The notes under the pieces were generated by a model, which was not told the origin of the DNA, did not search any database, and saw only the letters and a list, made by a program, of their open reading frames with translations. DNA of 64,000 nt, taken from assembly GCF_000174415.1 (NCBI RefSeq), contig NZ_ACJM01000015.1, forward strand, positions 1-64,000, given 5' to 3'. Made by a program: the position numbers and the translations under genes. The first letter of the stretch is position 1, and the number at the start of each line of letters is the position of its first letter. The stretch comes from Dethiobacter alkaliphilus AHT 1 (GTDB lineage Bacteria; Bacillota; Dethiobacteria; Dethiobacterales; Dethiobacteraceae). Shown here in pieces: positions 5,424 to 15,195 of the stretch.

Positions 5424-6677
5424 ATGAGATTCAAAAAGTTTTGGCTGCTGGCATTGGTATTTTTGCTGGCAGGGTCTCTCCTTCTTGCTGGTTGCGGTGA
5501 ACCCGCAAACAACAATGACAACAACAATGAGGTCAACGGAGAAGAGCCCGGTGATGATGTAGTACTTAACCGCTACAGAGGAATTTTTGAAGACGGTGGC
5601 GTTCAGCAGGTAGCTGTCCAGTTCCACCTGGATGAAGACGGCACTATTTATGACATGAGTTTCCGTCACCTGGAGTATGGTGGTACGGACTATCGTGAAC
5701 TGGAAGAGGATCATGCTTTGTATGCAGTGGTTCAACAGCACGAGCAAATCATCGAGTACTTAGAAGGAAAGAATATCGATGAGATTGATGCTCTGCACAA
5801 TCCGGGAGATTTTGTGGAAGATGTGGACGGCATGAGTGGCGCCACAGTGCGTGCCAACAAAGTATACTCTGCCATGAGAGATGCACTGAACAGAGGTATT
5901 TACAGCCCCGGCAACGGCGTTGCCGACCTGGAAGGCGACTTTGAAGACGGCCGCTACAGAGGCGTGTTTGGTGACCGTGGCGACCAGCAAATCGCAGTTC
6001 AGTTCCACCTGAACGGCAACATTATTGAAGATATGAGCTTCCGTCATCTTTATCATGGTGGAAACGACTACCGTGAAATGGAAGAGGGAGATGCACTGTA
6101 TCCAATCGTGGAGCAGCATGAGCAGATCATCGAATATCTGGAGGGCCAGGATATCCGCACAGTCCTTGCAGACCTGCACAATCCCGGCGACTTCATCGAA
6201 GATGTTGATGGTTTCAGCGGAGCTACCGTAAGAGCCAATAAAGTATACTCCGCCATGATGGACGGGCTGGCCAGAGGCCTGTATGCACCTGGTAACGGAG
6301 TTGCCGATGTGGAAGGCGACTTTGAAGACGGCCGCTACAGAGGCACATTTGGTGACCGCGGCGACATTCAGGTTGGGGTTCAGTTCCATCTCAATGACAA
6401 CGTAATTGAAGATATGAGCTTCCGTTATTTATACTACGGTGGCACTGACTTCAGAGAACTGGAAGAAGATCACGCTTTTTATGGTGTGGCAGAGCAGCAT
6501 GAGCAGATCATCGAGTATCTGGAAGGCCAGGATATCCGGACTGCATTGGCAGATCTGCACTATCCCGGTGACTTCATTGAGGATGTGGATAACTGGAGCG
6601 GCGCTTCAGTTAGAGCAAATAAGGTTTACTCTGCTATGAGAAGTGCGCTGGCCAGAGGGGTATACCAGTACCGCTAA
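5424..6677 (+). CDS. Lipoprotein with three tandem FMN-binding domains
   Basis: The 417-residue protein has a lipoprotein signal (LLAGC), an Asn/Asp-rich linker (NNNDNNN) and three tandem copies of a 127-residue unit. Each unit starts YRG.F.D.G..Q and ends with an ApbE-type flavinylation motif: DGMSGAT (Thr141), DGFSGAT (Thr268) and DNWSGAS (Ser395). The acceptors are exactly 127 residues apart. Strong DNA identity between units (for example near 5940 and 6321) points to recent internal duplication. If all three sites are modified, this is a three-flavin electron wire on the outer face of the membrane. A double CATATG element and activator-type promoter lie upstream, and a terminator follows. 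It relates to the one-domain protein at 1272. Confidence 0.85.
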   Translation: MRFKKFWLLALVFLLAGSLLLAGCGEPANNNDNNNEVNGEEPGDDVVLNRYRGIFEDGGVQQVAVQFHLDEDGTIYDMSFRHLEYGGTDYRELEEDHALYAVVQQHEQIIEYLEGKNIDEIDALHNPGDFVEDVDGMSGATVRANKVYSAMRDALNRGIYSPGNGVADLEGDFEDGRYRGVFGDRGDQQIAVQFHLNGNIIEDMSFRHLYHGGNDYREMEEGDALYPIVEQHEQIIEYLEGQDIRTVLADLHNPGDFIEDVDGFSGATVRANKVYSAMMDGLARGLYAPGNGVADVEGDFEDGRYRGTFGDRGDIQVGVQFHLNDNVIEDMSFRYLYYGGTDFRELEEDHAFYGVAEQHEQIIEYLEGQDIRTALADLHYPGDFIEDVDNWSGASVRANKVYSAMRSALARGVYQYR

Positions 6678-9103: not shown

Positions 9104-9177
9104 ATGCAATTTTTGCTTAAGGAGATTTAACCCGGCTCGGGCTATACTTAAGTAAAGAAAAGCTAGGAGTGATAAGA

Positions 9178-9522
9178 ATGTTGGAATTTTATTGTTTCCC
9201 GGCCTGAAGGACCTGCCAAAAAGCGAAAGCGTGGCTTTCGGAAAAAGATGTGGAATTTACGTACCGCAATATCCTGAAAGAACCTCCTACTGCCCAAGAG
9301 TTGGAGGAGTTGGCTAAGCGTGCCGGGTTACAGGTAAATGAATTAATTAACCCTAAAAGCAAAGCTTTTAAGGATGTGGGCAAGGATGCAGAAGCCGTAT
9401 CTCCACAAGAGGCAAAAGAGCTGATTTCGGCCAATCCCAGGATAATGTACCGGCCGTTACTAACCGATGGTAAACGCCTGACCATGGGCTTTAAGCCTGA
9501 GGAGATGGAAGCGCTTCTGTAG
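9178..9522 (+). CDS. ArsC/Spx-family selenoprotein (in-frame TGA as Sec)
   Basis: Reading from the ATG at 9178 (ribosome site AGGAGTG), the frame gives MLEFYCFPA, TGA, RTCQKAKAWLSEKDVEF and on to RPLLTDGKRLTMGFKPEE. This is 114 residues, the usual length of ArsC/Spx thioredoxin-fold proteins. The TGA (9205-9207) falls on the first residue of the family's CxxC (normally P.C.TC.KA). That is where selenocysteine would replace the nucleophilic Cys. A seven-pair hairpin follows at bSECIS distance. Ordinary gene finding would start at the GTG at 9250 and lose the active site. A sequencing error or pseudogene is possible, but the second TGA-Cys gene (msrA, 14533) argues for real Sec use. Related proteins reduce arsenate or act as Spx-like regulators; the substrate is unknown. 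Confidence 0.82.
9205..9240 (+). promoter_or_regulatory. Candidate bacterial SECIS element
   Basis: After the in-frame TGA (9205-9207), CGAAAGC (9224-9230) pairs perfectly with GCTTTCG (9234-9240) around loop GTG. The loop starts 23 bases after the TGA and begins with G-T. Both agree with known bSECIS elements, whose loop G-U is read by SelB. Confidence 0.72.
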
Positions 9523-9576
9523 CAGGTATGCAATATTTTGCACAGGAATGCAAAAAAAGGTCCGTCCCTTTTTTGT

Positions 9577-9615
9577 GAGACTTTTGGGAACTGTTCCCAA
9601 AAGTCTCATTTTTTT
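9577..9615 (+). terminator. Strong intrinsic terminator
   Basis: A perfect 14-pair stem (GAGACTTTTGGGAA with TTCCCAAAAGTCTC) with loop CTG and seven T follows the ArsC-like gene. Confidence 0.93.
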
Positions 9616-14532: not shown

Positions 14533-15195
14533 ATGAGCGGTAAGTGTAATGCAGGCCGGTTGCCGTTGGACGCCGATGTTCCCGGTGCACTGGAAACTGC
14601 TACATTTGCGTTGGGATGATTCTGGGGCCCTGATGCCCGGTTCGGGCTCTTAACAGGTGTCTTCCGGACATGTGTGGGGTACGCAGGAGGCAGCAAGAAA
14701 AACCCCAGCTATCATAATCTTGGTGACCATACCGAAACCATTCAATTGGAATATGATCCTCGACAGATTACCTATGCCCAGCTCCTTGATATATTTTGGG
14801 AAAGCCATAATCCGGCCTTAGCCCGACCCGTTCAGTATACTTCAATTGTTTTTTTTCATAATGAAGAGCAGGCAGCGCTGGCCCGGAAAACTCTGACTGC
14901 CAGGGAAGCAAAAAACGGTAAGCTTTATACCACGGTTGTGGCGGCAAGAGAGTTTTATGCTGCAGAAGATTACCATCAAAAGTATTATCTGCAACAATTT
15001 GCGCAATTGACAAACGAGCTGCGGGCATGTTACAAAGACTTTGAAATGTTTGTGCGCTCCTCGGTGGCTGCCAGAATCAATGGCTATGTGGCGGGATACG
15101 GGACAATGGAGATGCTTGAGGCCGAAATAGACAGATTTGGCCTGACAGATGAGGGCCGGCAAGCCTTGCTGAAGCATGTGGCAAAGCTGGGTTGA
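14533..15195 (+). CDS. msrA: Selenoprotein peptide methionine-S-sulfoxide reductase (in-frame TGA as Sec)
   Basis: From the ATG at 14533 (ribosome site AAGGAAGG) the frame gives ALETATFALG, TGA (14617-14619), FWGPDARFG, then TCVGYAGGSKKNPSYHN and the rest of MsrA. The TGA is the codon of the catalytic Cys in the GCFWG signature, so the protein should read GUFWG with Sec29. Sec-containing MsrA proteins are known. A gene caller stopping at TGA would start at about 14674 and lose the active site. The full product is 220 residues; the C-terminal part (YHQKYYLQQF) is the usual MsrA repair domain. A GCCCG-GTT-CGGGC hairpin lies at bSECIS distance. It reduces methionine-S-sulfoxide in proteins. Confidence 0.88.
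14617..14647 (+). promoter_or_regulatory. Candidate bacterial SECIS element of msrA
   Basis: After the TGA (14617-14619), GCCCG (14635-14639) pairs with CGGGC (14643-14647) around loop GTT. The loop starts 21 bases after the TGA and, like the one at 9231, begins with G-T. The stem has only five pairs, so the lower stem must be irregular. Confidence 0.65.

Follow-up and report, generated by a model that had tools for sequence, protein, structure and literature searches.

A Dethiobacter alkaliphilus gene with a conserved in-frame UGA very probably encodes a selenocysteine-containing redox protein of the ArsC/Spx superfamily

Results

An ArsC/Spx-fold gene interrupted by one TGA

Translation of the analyzed DNA (the window, 64,000 nucleotides of the Dethiobacter alkaliphilus AHT 1 genome) confirmed a frame proposed in a first-pass annotation, which runs from an ATG (9178-9180) to a TAG (9520-9522) and is broken solely by a TGA at codon 10 (Table 1). 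With the TGA read as selenocysteine (Sec, U), the product has 114 residues and begins MLEFYCFPAURTCQKAKAWLSEK.... Ordinary gene calling would give just a 90-aa ORF beginning at GTG 9250, without β1 and the active site, in line with the truncation expected in that annotation. With the TGA read as Cys, the suggested search against ArsC/Spx families exceeded the cut-offs of Pfam ArsC (PF03960; 65.7 bits versus a gathering score of 24) and of the NCBIfam Spx/MgsR model TIGR01617 (93.8 versus a curated cut-off of 75.05). The AlphaFold2 model, made with an alignment of 66 homologues, had a pLDDT of 95.8, and its nearest solved fold was Bacillus subtilis Spx (PDB 3gfk, TM 0.89). The TGA codon aligned with Cys10 of the Spx CxxC motif, that is, with the first Cys, as had been claimed.

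Table 1. Coordinates of the gene, its elements and other features of the window and genome
Feature	Position	Strand	Basis or remark
Probable selenoprotein gene, ArsC/Spx-fold UxxC redox protein, 114 aa, putative Sec at codon 10	9178..9522	+	Translation, profiles, model
In-frame TGA, putative selenocysteine U10 of U10-R-T-C13	9205..9207	+	TGA shared by 45 distinct loci of homologues, with TGC instead in one close relative
Cys6 codon of the CxxxUxxC motif	9193..9195	+	Column counts: Cys in 45/45 Sec members and 9/21 Cys homologues
Likely ribosome-binding site, TAGGAG, upstream of ATG 9178	9164..9169	+	Sequence reading
Putative bSECIS hairpin within the coding sequence, 7-bp stem, loop GUG at 9231-9233	9224..9240	+	Fold, synonymous constraint, compensatory pairs, loss in L037
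Strong intrinsic terminator, 16-pair stem and T run, closing the gene	9575..9609	+	Terminator scan
Second putative selenoprotein gene, MsrA with putative Sec at the catalytic Cys (ALGUFWGPDARF...)	14533-15195	+	TGA 14617-14619; TIGR00401 114.5 over 108.1
Two adjacent Prx/thioredoxin-like genes	L150 561-1097, 1048-1644 (G000 contig C14, about 64560-65640)		One in-frame TGA each
Lipoprotein with three tandem FMN-binding-like repeats (YRGIFxDxGxxQ...GATVRANKVYSAM)	5424-6677	+	Window
Acyl-CoA-dehydrogenase-like protein, 567 aa	9679-11382	+	No NCBIfam equivalog near its cut-off

Several other genes of the window and genome were recorded (Table 1). Standard calling would begin the msrA gene at GTG 14674, and its TGA is followed by a hairpin, GCCCG-GUU-CGGGC; Sec-MsrA is a known kind of selenoprotein. 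The TGA codons of the adjacent gene pair on contig C14 lie in the contexts SSGUASC and HLGUMLG, and the two products are likely to be Prx-like selenoproteins. Scanning the window for read-through frames, with an overlapping-frame filter, returned five, all of them chance upstream extensions of ordinary genes; this filter drops true Sec genes too, and the scan is an incomplete census. The lipoprotein is related to a single-copy ORF at 1239-1745.

Conservation of the TGA and presence of the Sec machinery

Homologues were sought in 98 genomes from the class and in 398 from the phylum; the search of genome contigs returned only four loci. At 45 distinct homologous loci, with identities of about 40-68%, TGA occupied the same codon, and after it the homologues kept a full-length conserved protein to its normal end. 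This conservation ruled out a base-calling error at 9205, where a TGC or TGT might have been misread, and the homologues are not the truncated pseudogenes that had been considered as a possible refutation. Column counts showed that Cys6, Sec10, Thr12, Cys13, Asn58, Ser61 and Arg92 were invariant in all 45 Sec members. The UGA is found at the catalytic Cys position, and the family also has homologues with Cys there. On a tree of 66 rows, the Sec label of the 45 Sec rows required three changes, whereas shuffled labels needed 17.9. A single Cys row (L037, with TGC), whose genome belongs to the same family and retains selA, was nested in the Sec group beside L029 (95/87); a reversion from Sec to Cys explains it best.

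The genome (3.11 Mb, 99.5% complete) was checked for Sec machinery, as had been proposed, and all components were found: a tRNA-Sec with anticodon UCA (70.4 bits), and selA (586.1 bits), selB (388.6 bits) and selD (384.6 bits), which are adjacent on contig C1. A UGA also stands in selD itself, where Sec is usually found. In the phylum sample, selA was present in 17 of 17 checked genomes with a TGA homologue (or in 40 of 40 when stops called automatically are counted) and in 41 of the 88 genomes with homologues that lack TGA (Fisher p 1e-5, or 8e-11 with automatic stop calls), a contrast whose p value is inflated by shared ancestry and which belongs to the phylum sample, nearly all genomes within the class having selA. 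The genome also encodes a tRNA-Cys(GCA) of tRNA-Sec-like shape (L002 1501-1590; G000:C3:124334-124423; 58.5 bits with the tRNA-Sec model). It is similar to the selC* tRNA-Cys reported from anaerobes (PMC7609411).

A conserved hairpin downstream of the TGA

The seven-pair hairpin with a GTG loop reported in the first-pass annotation was found (CGAAAGC-GTG-GCTTTCG, all pairs Watson-Crick); the 23 bases given as its distance, however, run from the TGA to the loop, whereas the stem starts 16 bases after the TGA. A bSECIS lies just 3' of its UGA and has a G in the apical loop, and both features are present here. The local fold had an energy of -8.1 kcal/mol (z = -2.46), with 4 of 200 shuffles as good, a statistic that by itself would be weak; conservation across the 45 loci lifts the hairpin far above chance. 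The Rfam search for SECIS elements gave no match, and no bacterial SECIS was reported by it.

Codon usage at the Sec loci was strongly biased in the hairpin, with CTT for Leu20 in 42 of 44, GCG for Ala18 in 41 of 43 and GCG for Ala16 in 34 of 41, whereas the remaining conserved codons of the same genes tracked background usage and the Cys homologues had CTT in 1 of 19 and GCG in 5 of 19. Among the Sec loci, 91.4% of stem cells were paired, and changes on both sides of the stem occurred in 8 cells, versus 1.2 in shuffles, including compensatory swaps from C-G to G-C and from G-C to A-U. In the Cys revertant L037, the hairpin had collapsed (-1.1 versus -8.1 kcal/mol). Common descent of the loci makes the binomial, covariation and Fisher figures too favorable, but it would hardly suffice to explain the within-gene and Sec-versus-Cys contrasts. 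Judged from these patterns, the hairpin at 9224-9240 is a selected bSECIS. Two Sec homologues (L073 and L078) are without the conserved GCGAAAGCGTGGCTTTC hairpin within 30 nt after the TGA and have instead GCCAU-GGC-AUGGC or GCCAG-GGC-CUGGC (GCCAN-GGC-NUGGC), the loop of which lies closer to the UGA by about three bases; this alternative hairpin is a putative replacement of the SECIS.

Linkage to a Sec-peroxiredoxin in relatives

When TGA codons were read through, a gene for the Sec-peroxiredoxin PrxU, a different protein from the redoxin, was found 17-73 bp directly upstream on the same strand in 15 genomes, spread over six genera in three families of the class. The upstream protein (TFVUPTE) scored 372 bits against the PrxU model NF040737 (cut-off 270). 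Clustering of ORFs by blastp at 20 loci had found nothing consistent among the neighbors except in three near relatives; the operon was missed because PrxU has a TGA of its own, at which ORF calling ends. Adjacency outside the class was not seen among the matches listed. In one relative (G084), an intact PrxU gene is followed by a degenerate copy of the Sec-ArsC/Spx-like gene; in another (G058), PrxU is reduced to a tail in front of that gene.

PrxU is a peroxide-destroying enzyme. Its GEPTPAGW corresponds to GEVCPAGW of human Prx2, so that PTP replaces the resolving VCP, and its selenenic acid would therefore need an outside reductant. We considered whether loss of the resolving Cys is confined to linked PrxU and rejected this, because unlinked copies are also without it. 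Some genomes with PrxU (such as G042 and G044) are without a TGA homologue, and PrxU itself is absent from the D. alkaliphilus genome, where the best match had an E value of 4.4e-9. The adjacency seen in the relatives nevertheless hints at the job of the redoxin.

Alternative explanations

The claim of a thiol oxidoreductase with Sec and an ArsC/Spx fold held as the best reading, but not as Spx itself. As an Spx-type transcription regulator, the protein would use a U10-C13 selenenylsulfide as a switch, and its oxidized form would bind the RNA polymerase αCTD and turn on stress genes. Spx proteins are the closest folds and PDB sequences (3gfk and 1z3e, with 32% identity), the cut-off of the Spx/MgsR family is exceeded, and the active-site position and the invariant Arg92 are shared. 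However, Gly52, which is absolutely required for the αCTD contact of B. subtilis Spx with RNA polymerase (PMC2801614), is Q in the window protein, and E/S/T/Q/P/D lead this column of the clade (with E, S or T in most members); K or G usually stands in place of Arg60; the C-terminal tail is missing, the protein ending at residue 114 versus 131 in Spx; the models NF002459, NF009210 and NF009885 score below their cut-offs (95.1 < 123, 72 < 159 and 69 < 152); and an operon with a peroxidase in relatives suits an enzyme better. We therefore rejected Spx proper and regard an Spx-type regulator as unlikely. Still less probable is a Sec-containing arsenate reductase, in spite of the Pfam ArsC match and the known arsenate-reductase selenoproteins with UxxS (PMC1088965): the arsC equivalog TIGR00014 gave 52.3 bits versus a cut-off of 106.05, no adjoining ars genes were present among the neighboring ORFs inspected in the window and in sampled relatives, and the motif is UxxC rather than UxxS. 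We rejected a classical arsenate reductase too.

It is very improbable that the gene is a pseudogene or a product of sequencing error, with the TGA an ordinary nonsense change or the true start downstream at GTG 9250. The 90-aa ORF that a standard caller yields from that GTG fits such an origin; it would, however, be without β1 and the active site, and the TGA loci have conserved full-length flanks on both sides, synonymous constraint on the hairpin and perfect co-occurrence with selA. Even if the base at 9205 were wrong, 44 other TGA loci would stand. Equally slight is the chance that a selC*-type tRNA-Cys reads the UGA as Cys. The tRNA-Sec-shaped tRNA-Cys of this genome, and the UCA anticodon found on such tRNAs in some Desulfobacterales (PMC7609411), would favor such decoding, but the tRNA-Cys here carries GCA, an anticodon unable to pair with UGA, and the tRNA with UCA is tRNA-Sec.

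Discussion

The conserved UGA, the constraint on the hairpin and the co-occurrence with selA together argue for a selenoprotein rather than a pseudogene. The gene at 9178-9522 is thus very probably that of a genuine bacterial selenoprotein, with bSECIS-directed Sec at UGA 9205, acting as a selenol/thiol redoxin of the ArsC/Spx superfamily; in the relatives where the two genes are linked, it is likely to be a reductant of PrxU. In the mechanism that we propose, SelB would deliver Sec-tRNA-Sec to UGA 9205, directed by the hairpin, to give a thioredoxin-fold protein with the active site C6-x3-U10-x2-C13. The U10 selenolate would attack an oxidized partner (a selenenic or sulfenic acid, a disulfide or a mixed selenide), C13, perhaps with C6, would resolve the intermediate as a selenenylsulfide, and cellular thioredoxin-type systems would re-reduce it. 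From fold and motif, a selenol/thiol oxidoreductase is the most likely function, and its role could be the recycling of oxidized selenenyl or sulfenyl enzymes.

The Sec ArsC/Spx proteins with UxxC have been known as a kind since 2008, and the window gene adds one member. Lists of selenoproteins have included Sec members of the ArsC family since 2005-2006 (PMC1088965, PMC1794560), and UxxC selenoproteins of cd03032 were catalogued in 2008 as "Arsenate reductase 2" in the Global Ocean Sampling data (PMC2398784); cd03032 is ArsC_Spx (PMC8755942). These 42 marine metagenome sequences belong to the same superfamily, to the Spx subfamily by their assigned domain, and have Sec first in UxxC, a likeness that rests on the named domain and the motif. 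Unlike the marine reads, the window clade comes from anaerobic Bacillota and has an invariant CxxxUxxC. NF041106 (ArsC_rel_Se_1) likewise describes ArsC-family (seleno)proteins with UxxC (PMC13188914), but the window protein scored 26.8 against its cut-off of 85 and is of a different subfamily, without a curated selenoprotein model of its own. From B. subtilis Spx, a regulator, it differs in having Sec for Cys10.

A precedent for a selenoprotein redoxin that recycles another selenoenzyme comes from Clostridium sp. OhILAs (C. oremlandii), where Sec-glutaredoxin reduces Sec-MsrA (Kim et al. 2011, as cited in PMC13188914). Compared with the Sec-glutaredoxin as described in that citation, the window protein is of a different redoxin family, and the linked enzyme, in relatives, is PrxU. 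Where the gene lies directly behind PrxU, gene order makes it likely that the protein is a dedicated reductant of PrxU. We put forward only tentatively that a one-Sec PrxU has the Sec-ArsC/Spx-like protein as its specific resolving partner, in a two-selenoprotein peroxidase system in which the PrxU selenenic acid would be handed to the selenol redoxin, and that in genomes without PrxU the redoxin serves other selenoenzymes such as Sec-MsrA. In the PrxU-less D. alkaliphilus, the client may be the Sec-MsrA encoded 5 kb away or the Prx-like proteins of contig C14. Within open-licence papers, we found neither an operon of PrxU with a Sec-ArsC/Spx-like gene nor an ArsC/Spx-like family of PrxU electron donors described.

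Taken together, these findings recover a functional gene from which standard calling leaves a 90-aa fragment without the active site, and document a widespread Bacillota clade of Sec ArsC/Spx-fold proteins that escape the current curated models for selenoproteins. The close Cys revertant L037 is a ready natural control for Sec versus Cys chemistry and for loss of the SECIS, and the linkage to PrxU provides a directly testable candidate reductant for a peroxiredoxin without a resolving Cys of its own.
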